Assembly: GCA_001898035.1 (NCBI GenBank)
Contig: MKRX01000001.1
Span: 55,618 to 119,617, forward strand
Direction: 5' to 3'
DNA from: Armatimonadetes bacterium 55-13
GTDB lineage: Bacteria > Armatimonadota > Fimbriimonadia > Fimbriimonadales > Fimbriimonadaceae
DNA length: 64,000 nucleotides
A model generated the notes under the pieces. The model did not search any database. It was not told the origin of the DNA and saw only the letters and a list, made by a program, of their open reading frames with translations. Position numbers and translations under genes: made by a program. Each line of letters begins with the position of its first letter. Position 1 is the stretch's first letter. This document shows, piece by piece, positions 4,127-56,379 of the stretch.

Positions 4127-4390
4127 ATGGTCAAACGTAGTGTGAACCGTTCCGTGAATCCTTCTCGAGCAGCGACGCCGTGGAATGCGATCTTCTCGGT
4201 CTTTATGGCGCTACTTTACGGCGTTTCGCCCATCGACCTCATTCCCGATCTTATTCCCGTTTTGGGTTGGCTCGACGATGCGGCGATCGTGCCGATGTTT
4301 CTCATCCTGGCGTACTTTCAGTACCGGAAGGCCCAGCGGCAACATGAGGCGAAGGCGCGCGTTGTTGTGATGCCCCCGCCTCGCAATTAG
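4127..4390 (+). CDS. DUF1232 (YkvA-type) small membrane protein
   Basis: This 87-residue protein has the DUF1232 signature YGVSPIDLIPDLIPVLGWLDD followed by a hydrophobic helix. The motif is shared by YkvA-like proteins of unknown function that contain one or two membrane helices. An in-frame TTG at 4103 could add eight residues, but ATG 4127 gives the more natural basic N-terminus (MVKRSVNRS). It begins 42 bases after the kinase stop and may be the last gene of that operon. Its stop overlaps the stop of the convergent lipoprotein gene by three bases. Confidence 0.8.
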   Translation: MVKRSVNRSVNPSRAATPWNAIFSVFMALLYGVSPIDLIPDLIPVLGWLDDAAIVPMFLILAYFQYRKAQRQHEAKARVVVMPPPRN

Positions 4391-4614
4391 CGTGCGCGTT
4401 CTTTCTTTTTCTGCTCGATCAGGCGACTGAGTTCGCCGGGTTTCAGGGTGTGTGGCTGCGCCACGCTTTGCCCTGATCGGTCGGTGAGATCCAGTTTTGG
4501 CCGCTCCATGCCTTTGGCGATTTCGGCGTCACCCAATGTGGGCGCAGGATCGCCTGAGCAACCGATGAGGCTGCCCGCGACGATAGCGAGAAAGGCGATT
4601 CTTTGCTGAGTCAT
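4387..4614 (-). CDS. Small lipoprotein paired with upstream prepilin (couplet 1)
   Basis: The ATG at 4614 gives a 75-residue protein starting with MTQQRIAFLAIVAGSLIGC, a typical lipoprotein signal peptide with lipobox LIGC. The mature part is short, charged and ends in a lysine/arginine-rich helix (SRLIEQKKKERAR). The frame stays open far upstream of this ATG, but that region lies inside the prepilin gene. The start is 4 bases downstream of the prepilin stop. Three other prepilins in this window carry a similar small lipoprotein gene in the same place, so the two products probably work together. The function is unknown. Confidence 0.75.
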   Translation of the reverse strand: MTQQRIAFLAIVAGSLIGCSGDPAPTLGDAEIAKGMERPKLDLTDRSGQSVAQPHTLKPGELSRLIEQKKKERAR

Positions 4615-4618
4615 GAGA

Positions 4619-5554
4619 TTAATAGCCAATATCGATGGGGGTGGGAGTGCCGAAGTCCTGGAAGTCAAAGTCGGGTGAGTAGAGCAACATGTGGCAGCCG
4701 GTTTGGTCGTGCCAGAGCCCTCCGGGTTGGCCCTGGGAGCTATATCCCCAGAATGGATCGGTTCGATAGTCGGTGAGTCCCTCGATGTTTCCGCCGACGC
4801 GATGAAACTTGGCAGAAGTGTCCGTGCTGACCCAATTTTGTCCGTTGTTGTAGACCCATAGGCTGGAGCTATCCGATCCGAGGGTGCGTCCGAAGGTGAT
4901 GGTGTAGCTGGAGGCGCCGTTGGTGTTGTAACAATCGGGACGACTTCCCGCGCGCGTGAATCGACATGGGGCGGAGCCATCCCAGCAGTTGAGGCTTGGC
5001 GAGGAGATGCTGGCGCCGACAATATTCGTTTTGCCCAGGATTTGAGTGTACATCGGCAATTGACTGGGAGAGGCGACTTCAGTGGCGGAATACGAATTGA
5101 GGAGGCCGTTGTACCAGAAGCCGACGGTAGTGGGCTTCTTTTGAAAGTCTGACATTCGGTAGACGCGAGCCTCGTCTGAAACGCCCGTCGCGCTCAGTAG
5201 TTCAGGGCTCTTTCGATAAGGGGTAGTGGAATTTGCCCAGGGTTGACTGAAGAAGTCCATATCTTCCGGCGAATAAAGACCGATTACGTCAGCAGGGGTG
5301 GGGATCCACAGGTCGGTCATGTAGAAGACGTCTTTGATGCCCGGAAAGGCAAGGGGGAACGTGTCGTCGTAGTCACCCGAGTAGATCACCGTCGCGGTGG
5401 CCTGTTGCTTCATATTGGACAAGCAGGAGGTCTTTTGGGCGGCCACTTTGGCGCGGGCAAAAACCGGGAAGAGAATCGCGGCGAGGATCGCGATGATGGC
5501 GATGACGACCAGTAATTCGATGAGCGTAAATGCGGATTTGACTTTGTGTGCCAT
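4619..5554 (-). CDS. Type IV-prepilin-like protein (N-terminal cleavage/methylation domain), couplet 1
   Basis: The 311-residue protein starts with a short basic leader (MAHKVKSA) followed directly by [18 protein letters not shown], the class III prepilin signal cleaved before Phe and the hydrophobic alpha-1 helix. It continues [22 protein letters not shown], as in DUF1559-like pseudopilins common in Planctomycetota and Armatimonadota. The globular part contains [10 protein letters not shown] and a late [12 protein letters not shown] segment related to the DG-H-KF motif of its paralogues. A GGGAG ribosome site sits 5 bases before ATG 5554. It is expected to be inserted in the inner membrane and processed by a prepilin peptidase, which is not in this window. 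A small lipoprotein gene follows directly. Confidence 0.9.
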
Positions 5555-44212: not shown

Positions 44213-44926
44213 CTATTGAAAACTTGGCGCTAATTGATGGTTTCCGATGTTGGTCAGTCGGCACTGCACGTAGGCATAAGACTCGGCCCCGCCATATTGC
44301 CAATCACCAGACAAAGTTATCGCGCTCGAAGCGCAAACAATGTCAAGGTTATGAGTAGTTTTGTAAGTTCCAGTCATGGGATCAAGAATAGGTACAAGCG
44401 GTCTTGAGTAGTTGACAACTACGGTTTTCTCATTTGGATCTCCACTTACCTCGGGAATAGAAGGATTTGGCCAATTTGCAACTAACTCAGCCATCTCAAC
44501 GAACTCAAAAAATCCACCCATTACCGAGAGTGCAGCCCTGGACGTTCCATATGAGCGATTAATCATGTCATCAGGGTCATCGGCACGGGCGACACACTTG
44601 TAGGTTATTTTCAGCTCGTAGTCCGCATTGAGGGGGGGATTGTCTCCAGGGAAACTGGGAGCCCATTCGATATCGCGAGAAATCTGGCCAATTATTCTTG
44701 AGTAGGTGTTTGCCCAGGGAAAGTAAAGCCCAACCCATGAATCAACGCCATAGAAGGCGTCTAGGCTAGATCCACTATTTGCCATATATAGGTATCCGCC
44801 ACCATCTTGGGCCGATATTGTGACAGAAGGACTGGATACCGTCAATGTTCCAGCGTGAGCAATTGATTGAATTGCAAAAAACGATGCAATGAAAAATGTG
44901 AAAGAGCGCTTAACTGTGTACTTCAT
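44213..44926 (-). CDS. Exported protein of unknown function, A/T-richer than neighbours
   Basis: ATG 44926 gives 237 residues beginning with a clear signal peptide MKYTVKRSFTFFIASFFAIQSIAHAG; an earlier ATG at 44962 would lie within a long inverted repeat and is less likely. The mature part is beta-rich (TLTVSSPSVTISAQDGG, ELKITYKCVARADD) with three Cys. No family is recognised. The codon choice (many AAT, TTT, ATA and TCA-type codons) is unlike the neighbouring GC-rich genes, which suggests recent acquisition. It follows a prepilin gene in the position where other prepilins have a small lipoprotein, but two hairpins separate them. Confidence 0.65.
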   Translation of the reverse strand: MKYTVKRSFTFFIASFFAIQSIAHAGTLTVSSPSVTISAQDGGGYLYMANSGSSLDAFYGVDSWVGLYFPWANTYSRIIGQISRDIEWAPSFPGDNPPLNADYELKITYKCVARADDPDDMINRSYGTSRAALSVMGGFFEFVEMAELVANWPNPSIPEVSGDPNEKTVVVNYSRPLVPILDPMTGTYKTTHNLDIVCASSAITLSGDWQYGGAESYAYVQCRLTNIGNHQLAPSFQ

Positions 44927-44928
44927 CG

Positions 44929-44986
44929 AAGTAATGATGACATTAATTTCTAATGTCATCATTACTTTAACAATAGCTTATTGTTA
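44929..44986. repeat. Two adjacent perfect inverted repeats between prepilin and exported protein
   Basis: A 17-bp perfect inverted repeat (44929-44945 with 44951-44967, 5-nt loop) is followed after no gap by an 8-bp one (44968-44975 with 44979-44986, 3-nt loop) that includes the prepilin stop codon. The larger repeat begins three bases from the start codon of the exported protein. Neither has a T run, so operator, attenuator or processing functions are all possible. Confidence 0.8.
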
Positions 44987-45820
44987 TTTACAGCCTGCCT
45001 TGAACGGATCCCACATCGATTCGGTGTAGGTGGTGGTGGGGGCATCGTTGACGACCTTCTTCCAGTCGAAGGATTTGGCGCTGGTATCGGCTCGGACAAC
45101 GTTCAACTGACCATTGTATCGAGCTTGGATGAGCTTCTCGGCTTCGGCATCCGAAGGAGGTCCAGACGATCGGAAGTAGGTGGAGTTGCCCAGGCTCTTC
45201 CAGTAGTACGGATAGGTGCTCGACGTCGGGTCAAAGGTTTGGCTCTTCAGAATGCACACGCCGCGCGGAAGCACGTTGTAGTAGCTTGCGTCGACGAGCA
45301 TAATGGTGTTGGAAACGTTCTCAACTGCGGTGGCCGACATGGAAGGATCCGAAGGCGTGAACATGTAGTTGTTTACGCCGTAGGAGTTCTGTCCGCCATA
45401 GCTTCGGTACGCCGCAGTATCGGTGGACGCACCGGTGGGATCGTAGCCGACCCAAGCGATCGGGTTGGTAGGCGCCTTCCACAGGTCATCGTTCTTGATG
45501 TACGGAGCAAGAAGCTGGTTGAAGAAGATTCGGGTTCGGGCACTGGAACCGAATACGGAGTCGGCAAAGGCGGCTCCTCTGCTGTTGGTGACCTTCACGT
45601 AGTCAGGGTTGGTACCGTTAACGCGATACGGGAAGTAAACATCGTCGTAGTCCTGCAGATAGATCTGGCTGGCGGTGCCGATTTGCTTAGCCTGAGCGAG
45701 TCCCTGAGACTTCTTGGCGGCGAGCTTGGCTTGCGCGAAGACCGGGAATAGGATGGCGGCGAGGATTGCGATGATTGCGATGACAACAAGCAGTTCGATA
45801 AGCGTGAATGCACGTTTCAA
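44984..45820 (-). CDS. Type IV-prepilin-like protein (unpaired copy)
   Basis: TTG 45820 is the likely start: AAGGAG lies seven bases upstream and the product then begins [22 protein letters not shown], exactly as in its paralogues; ATG 45859 would add 13 odd residues. The 278-residue protein continues [35 protein letters not shown] and a late [10 protein letters not shown], typical of DUF1559-like pseudopilins. It should be processed at the inner membrane. No lipoprotein gene follows directly, unlike the other four copies. Confidence 0.88.
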
Positions 45821-45860
45821 AGGTTTGACTCCTTGGAGAGGGGATGGTCGTTGACGCATG

Positions 45861-46024: not shown

Positions 46025-46234
46025 TCATTGTTGGCCTTGTTCGACGGCGGCATCTCTTTGTTTGCCCGCCATGTACTCGTCGTATTTGCCTGCGCGTTTG
46101 AGGTCTTCTTCCAGTTGCGCCTGAGATTGCTTTGGATAGGCCTTGTTGATTTCCGAGTTGCCAATGGGGCCGGTGGAGCCGCACCCCAAGAGGGTGAAGG
46201 TCCCAACGACGCCCAAGATCACTTTGATGGTCAT
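46025..46234 (-). CDS. Small lipoprotein paired with upstream prepilin (couplet 2)
   Basis: The ATG at 46234 shares one base with the stop of the prepilin gene (TAATG), a strong sign of coupled translation; an in-frame ATG at 46252 lies inside the prepilin gene. The 69-residue product begins [18 protein letters not shown], a lipoprotein signal with lipobox LLGC. The mature part is a charged helix (QSQAQLEEDLKRAGKYDEYMAGKQRDAA). No family is recognised, but position and type match three other lipoproteins here. Confidence 0.75.
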   Translation of the reverse strand: MTIKVILGVVGTFTLLGCGSTGPIGNSEINKAYPKQSQAQLEEDLKRAGKYDEYMAGKQRDAAVEQGQQ

Positions 46235-47229
46235 TAGCCGCCAAAACCCCACATGGGATAGTTCACATTTGTATTAGGGGTGCGGATGCCTAGGTTGCCT
46301 GCGGTTCCTCCACCATTAGGCATCCCGTGACAGTCGTTTTGGTAGGTCCAACCGGCGCTGGCTCCGCCTGAAACGCCGACCAACTCCAGTTTTGTCGGGC
46401 AGTTCGCGAGGAATTTCCCGGCCTGCATGAACTTAGCGCTGCCGTCCGAGAAGCCGAGAACGGCTCCTCCGGTGGTCGCCTTGTTATAGTCCACCTCGTT
46501 GCTCACCGTATCTGCAAAGCAGTCGGTAACGCCGCGCGGGGTCTTATAGAATTTGTTCTTCCAATATTCCCGAAAGGCTGGGGGGTAGGCCACGATGTCT
46601 TGGGTGGTGGTGCTCCATTGGTTGTCATCGGTTGCGGCGGGGATGACGCCGAGGTTATAGGTGACTTCCATGAGGATCATGGCCTCGGATGGACGAGGGA
46701 TGGCGGTTAGGGTTCCTCCCAGCCAACTGTTTCGCTTGCCCCGAGAACCTACGACGCCGGTGGCCAGATTGGGGATGTAGAGCGAACCCGTCAGTCCGTT
46801 ATTGAGAAGGAACTGGTTGAAGAGCTCGCCATCGTTATCCCAGGTTGCCTGATCTTTTTGGCGGAGGGGGTGGAAGAAGAGATCGACACTTTTGATGTAT
46901 GGCATTGCCCACTTCTGCCATGAGAAGTTATTGACTCGATTGTAGTAGGGGCCATAGCAACCGCTGGTCGCGGTGGAGTTATAGGATGCGGCTTTGAACT
47001 TGCTGTTCAGGGAGCTATAGAGTTCGCAGGCATCTTGACGAGGATAAGTGTCGTCATAGTCGCCCGCATACATGATCAGGCCGAGGCCCTGTTGCTTGAT
47101 GTTGGAAATGGTGGCAGCCTTCTTTGCTGCGGTTTTTGCCTGCGCGAACACGGGAAAGAGGATGGCCGCAAGAATCGCGATGATTGCGATGACGACCAAG
47201 AGTTCAATGAGAGTAAAGGCTCTCTTCAT
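46234..47229 (-). CDS. Type IV-prepilin-like protein, couplet 2
   Basis: ATG 47229 has AAGGAG six bases upstream; ATG 47250 would add seven residues. The 331-residue protein begins [20 protein letters not shown] and continues with [24 protein letters not shown] and [14 protein letters not shown]. Near the end it has [21 protein letters not shown], the DG-x-KF element of this family, and it closes with [13 protein letters not shown]. It is closely related to the protein at 47556-48536, which shares the ending NYPMWG, so the two probably arose by tandem duplication. Confidence 0.9.
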
Positions 47230-47388: not shown

Positions 47389-47559
47389 TTACTCGCCTTG
47401 TCCGCGATCTTCTTGTTGACCGCCATTCAGCTTTTCGGATGCCTCTTTAATTTGCTGCTCTTTGGATTTCACGCCGTCATTGCTGACGTCGCTGGTGCCG
47501 CCGGAACATCCGACCAGCACGGCGGAGATCAGAGCGAAGCATAGAATCAGCCGAATCAT
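47389..47559 (-). CDS. Small lipoprotein paired with upstream prepilin (couplet 3)
   Basis: ATG 47559 overlaps the prepilin stop as ATGA. The 56-residue product begins [18 protein letters not shown] (lipobox LVGC) and then has a short, very polar mature part with a charged helix ([20 protein letters not shown]). A longer open frame upstream lies inside the prepilin. The strong overlap and the recurrence of this layout support it as a real gene despite its size. Confidence 0.75.
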
Positions 47560-48536
47560 TGAGCGGTTAAACCCCACATTGGGTAGTTGAGGTTGATGTT
47601 CGGAACGGCGGCGACACGCATGACTTCCGAGCCGGTTCCACAATTGCCGTAGCTATCCATGGCGCCGTACTCGGCAACGGTTGGGGTGTTCGCAAGGAAC
47701 TTTTGGGCTTGGTAGAACTTGGCGTGACCGTCGGCAAGACCCAAAACGATTCCGTTCGCGAAGACGGTGCGGGAATCGGGCTCATTGGAGATTTCCGCCA
47801 TGTTGGGCCCGGAGCAGGTGGTCCACTTCATGAAGATGCGGCCCCAGTACTCTCGGTATGCCTGCGGGTAGACGGTTTGTGTTGCAGGGGTTGGGAGGTT
47901 GTATTCCGCAGTGGTCATGACCATCGGCGAGAAGTTGAACTTGGAGCTTCCGAATTCGAAGAGGAGCATCGCGCCGGCGACGTCTGGGATAGAGCTCTGC
48001 GTGCCACCTAGCCAACTGTTTCGGACGCGAAGGACGGCTCCGGTGCCAACGTTGATGTTCGCCGAACCTGTGAGAGCCGGGTTGATCGCGAAGCCATTAA
48101 AGATTTCTCCGCCGTTGGCCCACATCGTGGCGTCTTTCTGGCGACCCGGATGCACGAAGAGGTCGACATTCTTGGTGTAGGGCATAAACCACTTTTGCCA
48201 GGAATAGGTGTTCACGCGGTTGTAGCCATTCGGCGTGCCGCCCGGAGTACTCGGAGGCGTTCCACATCCTTGGCCAGCGGCACCATTAAGAGCGGCGGCT
48301 CTTAGTGCTGGATTGAGGGAACTGAACTGGTCGCAACCGTCCGTTTGCGGATATTTGTCGTCCCAGTCGCCACAGTACATGATGGCGGCGAGGCTAATCT
48401 GCTTCTGGTTGCTGATGGCAGCAGTCTTCTTGGCAGCAGCTTTCGCCTGTGCGAAGACGGGGAAGAGGATGGCGGCGAGGATCGCGATGATTGCGATTAC
48501 CACCAAGAGTTCAATGAGGGTAAATGCACGTTTCAT
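47556..48536 (-). CDS. Type IV-prepilin-like protein, couplet 3
   Basis: The 326-residue protein begins [20 protein letters not shown] at ATG 48536 and continues [24 protein letters not shown] and [38 protein letters not shown] element near residue 280 and the ending [10 protein letters not shown] match the copy at 46234-47229. Conserved segments such as YNRVN-YSWQKW and VRNSWLGGT are shared as well, so these two are recent paralogues. The lipoprotein start overlaps its stop. Confidence 0.9.
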
Positions 48537-55319: not shown

Positions 55320-55532
55320 TTACTTGGCGTCGGCAGTGCTCTCGCCAATAGAGTCGGCCGGGCCCCCATTATTGGGTTGCCCGCCTTTCCCGGCTTCGCT
55401 TACATTGTCTGAAGCGCCGGAGAACTTCTGTCTCTCCTCGGGAGTGGTTTGAGGCGTCGATTCTGAACAACCCGCCATCGCGAGGGTGAGAACGGCTAGA
55501 AAGAGGATCGAGAGGAATCGCAACTTATTCAC
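55320..55532 (-). CDS. Small lipoprotein paired with upstream prepilin (couplet 4)
   Basis: The start is GTG 55532, which overlaps the prepilin stop by eight bases. The 70-residue product begins VNKLRFLSILFLAVLTLAMAGC (lipobox MAGC) and continues with a polar, Gly/Ser/Pro-rich mature part (TPEERQKFSGASDNVSEAG). A longer frame from 55643 is open but falls within the prepilin gene. The layout matches the three other couplets. Confidence 0.75.
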   Translation of the reverse strand: MNKLRFLSILFLAVLTLAMAGCSESTPQTTPEERQKFSGASDNVSEAGKGGQPNNGGPADSIGESTADAK

Positions 55533-56379
55533 CCGCAGCGTACATCCTTGGGTAGTAGTAGGTTCCATCCGAGGCCTGCTGATAGCCGTAGCGGAAGTTG
55601 GCTCGCCAATCGACCGACTTGGCGGAACTATCGGTGGCAACATAGATTGTCATCCCGTCGGGGGTTAAACAAGATGCGCCCGCTCCGTTTCTGCCATCTT
55701 TCGGTCGCTTGATTGGAGAGGGGCCACGAAAGTGCCAGACGTCGCCAAACACGTTGTTGGTTGCTCCCGACCACTTCGAGCATCCCGTCATGGGCGTAGC
55801 GGTGGAGGCGGTCCAACGGAAGTCCCAACCAGCCACGGTCTCGGCTAGCATCATCATGTTCGATGGGCTTCCAATCTGGCTTGTTGTATACGACGGGCTG
55901 TCTGCGATGGCGCCCGAGAATAGAGGTGCAGAAGCCGGTGAGCCGGCGCCAGCGATGCCATCAAAGCGAACATCATGACCATCTACCGAGTAGGTGAAGT
56001 ATCCGGTTGTGTTACCGCTCTTGGACGCGGCCCTTGGGATCAGTCCAAATTGCGAGTTCGCTTGATAGAACGTGGTAGGACGCGGCAATTTGATATGCCA
56101 CGTGATCTCGTAGTTCTTCTTGTACGGATCGATAATCCACTGCCAAGTGGTAAAGGCCGTGGCGCTGGTGCGGGTTGAGTGAAGCGGAAATGCGTCGTCG
56201 AAGTCCGTCGAATACATGACCGTCGCGGTTCCCATCTGTTTAAGTTGAGACAGGACGACCGTATTTTTAGCGGCGTCTTTCGCTTGGGCAAACACGGGGA
56301 AAAGGATTGCTGCGAGAATTGCAATGATTGCGATGACGACAAGTAACTCAATAAGAGTAAATGCCTTTGATAGTTTCAT
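55525..56379 (-). CDS. Type IV-prepilin-like protein, couplet 4
   Basis: The 284-residue protein starts [20 protein letters not shown] at ATG 56379, with GGAG six bases upstream. It continues [22 protein letters not shown] and DFDDAFPLHSTR; near the end ATDSSAKSVDW corresponds to the DTSAKSFDW of the unpaired copy. Six or more Ser/Thr/Gly-rich loops predict a beta-rich globular part. It should be cleaved before Phe by a prepilin peptidase encoded elsewhere. Confidence 0.9.
   Translation of the reverse strand: MKLSKAFTLIELLVVIAIIAILAAILFPVFAQAKDAAKNTVVLSQLKQMGTATVMYSTDFDDAFPLHSTRTSATAFTTWQWIIDPYKKNYEITWHIKLPRPTTFYQANSQFGLIPRAASKSGNTTGYFTYSVDGHDVRFDGIAGAGSPASAPLFSGAIADSPSYTTSQIGSPSNMMMLAETVAGWDFRWTASTATPMTGCSKWSGATNNVFGDVWHFRGPSPIKRPKDGRNGAGASCLTPDGMTIYVATDSSAKSVDWRANFRYGYQQASDGTYYYPRMYAAGE

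Follow-up and report, generated by a model that had tools for sequence, protein, structure and literature searches.

Prepilins and Membrane-Anchored Partners in Described Systems

The closest described relatives of the proteins considered here are the type IV prepilins and pseudopilins, including the PulG-like proteins (COG2165) of Fimbriimonas; the signal is the same, a long N-terminal helix is predicted, and the few structural matches found are pilins. The genome of F. ginsengisoli has been reported to contain 79 PulG-like genes, 65 of them with the N-methylation motif, and 150 lipoproteins, and the two groups are not connected with each other in the excerpts of the report (PMC4072686). The DUF1559 proteins (SBP_bac_10, PF07596) form large paralog sets as well and have a similar N-terminus; excerpts of a further paper mention 68 paralogs, two of them essential, and describe the function as unknown (PMC10632474). 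A literature search over the titles and abstract beginnings of open-licence PMC papers found no description of a pairing of prepilins with lipoproteins, and none is given in the excerpts of PMC4072686, PMC10632474, PMC2754498, PMC4807772 and PMC5352709. In contrast to the known prepilins, about half of the prepilin-like genes described below are followed by a small gene encoding a membrane-tethered partner. The search with PF07596 gave at best 15.8 bits (cut-off 23.3) for the four partnered prepilins of the window (the whole 64-kb stretch of DNA analysed, C1:55618-119617 of the genome), with copy 1 unlisted; none of the four was listed at E 1 by the TIGR04294 model (C-terminal H-X9-DG), which scored over its cut-off in loci L255 and L309.

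A membrane-anchored protein encoded behind its client is represented by the lipase-specific foldase (Lif, PF03280), a protein of about 300 aa with a membrane anchor, a Pro/Ala-rich linker and helical hairpins. The couplets have a similar layout, with an anchored product encoded behind the client, but the hairpin-containing partner is far smaller (about 80 aa) and the client is a pilin. The matches to Lif are weak: PF03280 was found on one of 20 members of the hairpin family (E 0.0021, 18.5 bits, cut-off 25.7) and was unlisted for the window lipoproteins, PDB sequence searches yielded 9g8u_B (E 0.051) and 2es4_D (E 0.89), and Foldseek yielded 9g8u_B (E 6.6). Membership in the Lif family was rejected, all scores being under the cut-off or at chance level, and Lif may be regarded as the closest working analogue. 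Pilotins (PilF/PilW, GspS) and LptM are small lipoproteins serving envelope machines; the partners described here differ from them in that no family match exceeded the cut-off (LptM, PF13627, gave 13.8 bits on lipoprotein copy 2, cut-off 27.3), in that they are encoded per pilin, not per secretin, and in that a transmembrane (TM) anchor is possible.

Couplets of the 64-kb Window

Five matches to PF07963 correspond to five prepilin genes of the window, four of which have a small lipoprotein frame directly downstream. A re-reading of the open reading frames bore out the coordinates and spacings that the initial annotation had given for these four couplets. The features are as follows:

4619..5554, minus strand: prepilin-like gene copy 1, 311 aa (PF07963 32.1 bits; TIGR02532 29.1 bits)
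4387..4614, minus strand: small lipoprotein gene copy 1, 75 aa, lipobox Cys19 (ORF and lipobox; ATG 4 bases past the prepilin stop)
46234..47229, minus strand: prepilin-like gene copy 2, 331 aa, frame open to 47250 (PF07963 29.5 bits, scanned from 47250)
46025..46234, minus strand: small lipoprotein gene copy 2, 69 aa (1-base overlap with the prepilin)
47556..48536, minus strand: prepilin-like gene copy 3, 326 aa (PF07963 30.4 bits)
47389..47559, minus strand: small lipoprotein gene copy 3, 56 aa (4-base overlap with the prepilin)
55525..56379, minus strand: prepilin-like gene copy 4, 284 aa (PF07963 31.7 bits)
55320..55532, minus strand: small lipoprotein gene copy 4, 70 aa from GTG (8-base overlap) or 67 aa from TTG at +1
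44984..45859, minus strand: fifth prepilin-like gene, partnerless (TIGR02532 31.8 bits)

The N-terminal cleavage/methylation motif of all four partnered prepilins scored over the cut-offs of PF07963 (21.2 bits) and TIGR02532 (16.3 bits). AlphaFold2 modelling of prepilin copy 1 predicted a helix at residues 11-61, with a mean pLDDT of 69 and a head partly under pLDDT 50; the best VIA-align match of the model was PilA4 of T. thermophilus (Z 4.4), all six matches with Z of at least 2 being pilins, and a Foldseek search gave no match at E <=0.001. A rule-based scan revealed a lipobox in all four lipoproteins, with the Cys at residue 18-22; the Pfam model LPAM_1 missed its cut-off, with 13.1 of 20 bits for copy 4 and the other three unlisted.

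The ORF and lipobox scan found no lipoprotein frame downstream of the fifth prepilin gene. A 249-aa frame with a signal-like start, which had no NCBIfam match at E 0.1, lies behind this gene at 44213-44962 of the window, and larger secreted-looking proteins were also seen by eye behind some other partnerless prepilins.

Pairing across the Genome

The prepilin N-terminal motif PF07963 has 103 matches in the 4.53 Mb genome to which the window belongs, and a couplet rule was applied to all of them. The rule accepts a same-strand ORF of 35-130 aa whose start lies between -30 and +100 nt relative to the prepilin stop and whose product has a hydrophobic stretch followed by a lipobox or, failing that, a strong TM segment; the constant presence of an anchor is thus partly built into the search. 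Among the 81 prepilins with the ELLVVI signal, 41 are followed by a lipoprotein, 8 by a TM-anchored ORF (7 plausible by eye, C14:96511 being a different kind of protein) and 32 by no partner, one of the latter having a lipoprotein 217 nt away. The 22 prepilins lacking ELLVVI have no lipoprotein partner and four TM ORFs (Fisher p 2.9e-6 for the lipoprotein partner). Control ORFs of at least 200 aa (n = 862) yielded two lipoproteins, both spurious in appearance, and 15 TM ORFs (Fisher p 1.6e-46 for 41/81 vs. 2/862); a recount with slightly different gene picking gave 2/852 controls within 100 nt and 6/852 within 300 nt.

A stricter scan of 1.46 Mb, in stretches chosen around prepilins, demanded an ATG start, a strong lipobox, a positive codon score and no overlap with long frames, and covers only part of the 41 couplets because ORFs overlapping longer frames were dropped. 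It returned 15 small lipoprotein ORFs, 14 of them behind a prepilin; the fifteenth (L066) is the couplet C26:186699 under another start. The pairing of lipoproteins with prepilins is not due to chance, and the observation is far larger than the window, extending to about half of roughly eighty ELLVVI prepilin genes.

The offsets of the 41 lipoprotein genes range from -16 to +74 nt, 37 starts lying within 21 nt of the prepilin; 20 of the genes overlap the prepilin gene, nine by 4 nt and six by 1 nt. These starts were picked by a script, several being uncertain or having alternatives (for copy 1, a TTG at -11 was taken instead of the ATG at +4). Sites resembling a Shine-Dalgarno sequence lie in front of 13 of the 41 lipoprotein starts and 56 of the 81 prepilin starts; for comparison, 63 of 820 positions chosen at random within prepilins have one. 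The overlaps and the scarcity of Shine-Dalgarno-like sites would be consistent with the translational coupling proposed initially, for many couplets, and are not a proof of it.

Coding Constraint and Shared Descent

The dN/dS ratios were estimated for eight pairs from genus g19 and L141, seven of which join sequences from different genomes, the eighth (L229/L243) being tandem paralogs within a single genome; as some sequences occur in more than one pair, the pairs are not all independent. For the lipoproteins, six pairs gave 0.09, 0.23, 0.35, 0.34, 0.27 and 0.18, where the value of 0.18 is near saturation (dS 3.2) and that of 0.09 rests on 9 synonymous and 3 nonsynonymous differences; in the two other pairs, dS was saturated, with pN of 0.22 and 0.19 vs. 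pS of 0.76 and 0.85, respectively. The prepilins of the same pairs have dN/dS of 0.06-0.13 in the five computable cases. The initial annotation had made its proposal dependent on a coding signal in the downstream frames, and this signal is present wherever a ratio could be computed: the lipoprotein frames encode proteins under constraint, although a looser one than that on the prepilins. A C-terminal stretch, GExEGKxPxFxxVPAQxDPN, is common to lipoprotein copies of four genomes.

Across 80 lipoprotein couplets, the similarity of prepilins correlates with that of their partners (Pearson 0.35; permutations mean 0, sd 0.033, 0/1000 as high), the correlation being carried almost wholly by close relatives. 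For prepilin pairs with a normalised score of 0.4-0.9 (50 ordered pairs), partner similarity has a mean rank of 0.12, compared with a null of 0.50 (sd 0.057), and none of 1000 permutations was as low. These similarities indicate that the lipoproteins follow their own prepilins in descent. The nearest prepilins to copy 1 score 0.36 at best; its lipoprotein ranks 3/79 in similarity with L141, 2/79 with L224, 41/79 with L082 and 11-24/79 with others, and a DPxPxxG segment after the Cys is common to the lipoproteins of copy 1, L141 and L224, the prepilins of which are related. Copies 2-4 have no clear ortholog among the couplets compared. The neighbouring paralogous copies 2 and 3 have related prepilins (0.36) and dissimilar lipoproteins (ranks 9 and 24 of 79), and the mature parts of the lipoproteins diverge to nothing except between close relatives.

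Mature Part and Hairpin Family

The mature part of the 41 lipoproteins of the genome, from the Cys onwards, comprises 25-75 aa (median 46), with P, A, G and S making up 46 percent; the residue after the Cys is G in 24, S in 15, A in one and V in one, and never Asp. The initial description of the mature part as helical applies to a minority of partners, which contain a helical hairpin of roughly T-x-E-x-x-I-x-x-I-x-x-x-P-x-x-x-K-x-x-A-I-x-x-L, and does not apply as a rule, the other mature parts being mostly Pro/Ala/Gly/Ser-rich and fast-evolving. A hairpin profile (helix-NNPx(M/I)PPxAK-helix, A5), built from members outside the family of the source genome, scored at least 6 bits in 8 of 92 partners (0.25 expected from shuffles) and at least 8 bits in four (0.05 expected), a test not fully independent because the profile members came from a search seeded partly with sequences of the same genome. 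All eight matching partners belong to this genome, and none of the four window lipoproteins is among them.

The same hairpin was found elsewhere in the phylum on a TM-anchored protein behind a prepilin (L127). In genus g44, 8 of 10 genomes have it, with 73-80 percent identity, and in every locus with a parsed prepilin the distance from that prepilin is 62-83 nt; the remaining two genomes gave weak matches, of which one, in a 362-aa frame, is doubtful. A profile (A4) seeded with hairpin members and three lipoproteins of the source genome was searched over 151 Armatimonadota genomes and matched in 36. Of the 30 loci returned, 29 were judgeable and 26 had a prepilin directly upstream (21/24 after exclusion of five seeds, 17/20 outside genus g44 and the source genome), with some weak matches counted as positive being doubtful members (L431, L436). 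The misses are L427 and L429, where the upstream frame is prepilin-like by eye and was left uncounted, and L430, where it is LacI-like.

Among 20 aligned members of the hairpin family, 15 have a lipobox and five a TM helix. AlphaFold2 modelling of the L418 hairpin predicted a helix at residues 41-49, a loop and a helix at residues 56-72 (pLDDT block means of 94-98 over residues 41-70). Pfam and NCBIfam searches gave sub-threshold matches in the members with scores shown (best E 0.0018 among 20), Foldseek found nothing at E <=0.001, and the comparison of A5 with PDB sequences revealed no convincing relative, the best match (E 0.0027) lying in the signal region.

The TM-anchored hairpin genes L263 1419-1731 and L266 1467-1734 (minus-strand frames, coordinates on that strand) have no prepilin and are flanked by an isomerase-like frame on one side and a LacI-type regulator on the other, both named by eye. 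The hairpin module is not strictly tied to prepilins.

Relatives and Other Phyla

The loci of relatives were fetched by prepilin similarity only, and distinct ELLV prepilins were counted. The initial annotation had named relatives that retain the prepilins and lack an open lipoprotein frame as evidence that would refute its proposal; the frame proved to be kept behind 24 of 29 distinct prepilins in genus g19 and 12 of 34 in the family/order set, where four more have a TM partner (two of these, in L083 and L108, resemble lipoproteins on inspection) and 18 have none. Records L141-L143 have a lipoprotein behind three of four prepilins. The couplet was rejected as a phylum-wide rule: the 30 best PF07596 loci of the phylum sample, in which four prepilins lie at edges and several loci have no parsed prepilin, contain one lipoprotein and one TM partner among 28 judgeable prepilins, and the couplet is thus rare elsewhere in the phylum.

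Records L144-L220, mostly from Verrucomicrobia and Lentisphaerae, contain five lipoproteins and five TM frames (mostly doubtful) among 83 prepilins. A Verrucomicrobiota family of lipoproteins of about 117-146 aa lies behind prepilins (L271-L274, L276, L277, L378-L406), and its member L271 has no match to a family model over the cut-off. The profile of this family (A3) matched in 26 of 39 genomes of the order of L170, with a prepilin directly upstream in 23 of 29 judgeable loci (21/27 without seeds) and L390 a likely further one by eye. Homology between the A5 and A3 families was rejected, since hhalign aligned the signal region only.

The genomes of the phylum of L179 (Phycisphaerae) were taken as planctomycetes. 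In the single-contig genomes G249 and G225, a lipoprotein lies within 250 nt of 14 of 39 sampled top-scoring DUF1559-type genes; this count was made by rule, without a gene-wide control, and includes some spurious-looking cases and one "TM" protein that looks like a lipoprotein. Of the best 30 of 68 matches to the carboxypeptidase-regulatory-like lipoproteins of G249, 28 are located behind a DUF1559-type prepilin (L348-L377; 23/25 without seeds), which lies 58-248 nt upstream, from the prepilin stop to the match. The profiles were seeded with prepilin neighbours, and the counts therefore describe those families, not all lipoproteins.

Proposed Role of the Partner

The couplet is established as a genetic unit that is coding, inherited together and provided with exchangeable anchors, and the partnership of the lipoprotein with its prepilin is well supported. 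The initial suggestion of a dedicated partner gains from the enrichment, the coding constraint, the inheritance with the prepilin and the recurrence in relatives and in two other phyla. Among the roles offered with it (anchor, chaperone or release factor), the interchange of lipid and TM anchors makes the first two, at the cytoplasmic membrane, more probable than a release factor at the outer membrane. Our main reading, to which we assign a probability of about 45%, is that the partner acts on its own prepilin at the cytoplasmic membrane as a tethered holdase or assembly factor. Of the two genes of a unit, the first would encode a prepilin-like protein and the second, which overlaps or follows it, a small dedicated protein held at the membrane through a lipid or, in other couplets, through a single TM helix. 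The partner would be located on the outer side of the cytoplasmic membrane, in which the N-terminal helix of the waiting prepilin may be embedded; the flexible tail or helical hairpin of the partner would touch the head of the cognate prepilin, holding it in place and assembly-competent, and many near-identical prepilins could thereby be handled one by one, in a layout resembling that of a membrane-anchored foldase encoded behind its client. This outer face would be the simplest shared site because a TM anchor keeps a protein in the cytoplasmic membrane and because lipid- and TM-anchored hairpin forms take the same position behind prepilins; given this site, the most economical role would be that of a holdase, anchor or assembly factor that is tethered and serves a single prepilin.

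Several observations count against this reading. It is weakened by the 32 of 81 prepilins left partnerless by the filter and by the restriction of the hairpin to a minority of the couplets of the genome, and the partnerless hairpin loci L263, L266 and L430 also argue against it. The near-total divergence of the mature parts appears odd for a specific binding surface. The dissimilar lipoproteins of copies 2 and 3 also count against the reading, as do the failure of the A5 and A3 families to align beyond the signal region and the small numbers of partners elsewhere in the phylum and in records L144-L220. In E. coli, lipoproteins without Asp after the Cys are sorted to the outer membrane, and by this rule the G or S found after the Cys in 39 of 41 lipoproteins would point there. 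A lipoprotein at the outer membrane, in the role of a pilotin, anchor or release factor that serves its pilin at the cell surface or the exit pore, would agree with the absence of Asp in all 41, with the four secretin matches in the genome and with the fact that known pilotins are small lipoproteins; we nevertheless consider this location unlikely, as homologous hairpin partners and the seven plausible TM-helix partners of the genome point to the cytoplasmic membrane, it would be unusual for four secretins to have dozens of different pilotins, and no pilotin family scored over its cut-off.

About equally improbable is a joint surface receptor composed of the pilin head and the lipoprotein, with a substrate of its own for each couplet. 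The large paralog sets with divergent heads and the resemblance of two of eight planctomycete partners to PF13620 (best E 1.3e-4, 22.6 bits, cut-off 32.3) fit such a receptor, and excerpts of one paper call PF07596 a family of solute binding proteins (PMC2754498), but the partners of the source genome, at 25-75 aa and rich in Pro, Ala, Gly and Ser, are too small for a usual ligand pocket. The overlapping starts, the few Shine-Dalgarno-like sites (13/41) and the fast divergence of the mature part could also be explained by a second frame serving mainly the translation or mRNA of the prepilin, its protein being nearly free to drift; this appears quite improbable in view of the lipoprotein dN/dS of 0.09-0.35, the hairpin kept across the phylum, and the planctomycete gaps, which are too long for start-stop coupling. 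If the pilin were bacteriocin-like, the lipoprotein could be its immunity-type or lysis/release protein; the layout alone, one small membrane lipoprotein per variable secreted protein, fits this idea. As toxin and immunity families gave weak matches only, all under the cut-off, the few structural matches with Z of at least 2 are pilins, and 8 of the 10 g44 genomes retain one of the hairpin couplets, we find it hardly credible.

With a holdase or assembly factor at the cytoplasmic membrane as the preferred role, a broader reading can be put forward tentatively: in those Armatimonadota, Verrucomicrobiota and Planctomycetota that have large sets of near-identical prepilins, single prepilins may repeatedly have been given membrane-tethered partners of their own. 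The families that supplied them, apparently unrelated, would include tiny lipoproteins, hairpins with a TM or lipid anchor, longer lipoproteins and Ig-like lipoproteins, and together the partners would possibly form a class of tethered assembly factors, general in scope and so far undescribed, each specific to a pilin. If so, tethered assembly factors would let few export machines handle dozens of pilins separately. The large sets of prepilin-like paralogs of these phyla are without a known role, and the small partner offers a handle on them: from the presence of a partner behind a single prepilin one can predict which members of a set function as separate units, and at what site. Lipoproteins of 50-80 aa are easily overlooked by annotation.

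In addition to the four secretin matches, the genome contains 13 T2SSE matches, five of them near full length. Clusters of non-ELLVVI prepilins without lipoprotein partners are located at C2:175526-176713 and C27:103702-105106, and these are perhaps the pilins of the machines themselves. One of the four secretin matches (C6:377204-377674) is followed downstream, after a few hundred bases, by the prepilin of locus L031 (C6:376848-376928), which has a TM-anchored partner.
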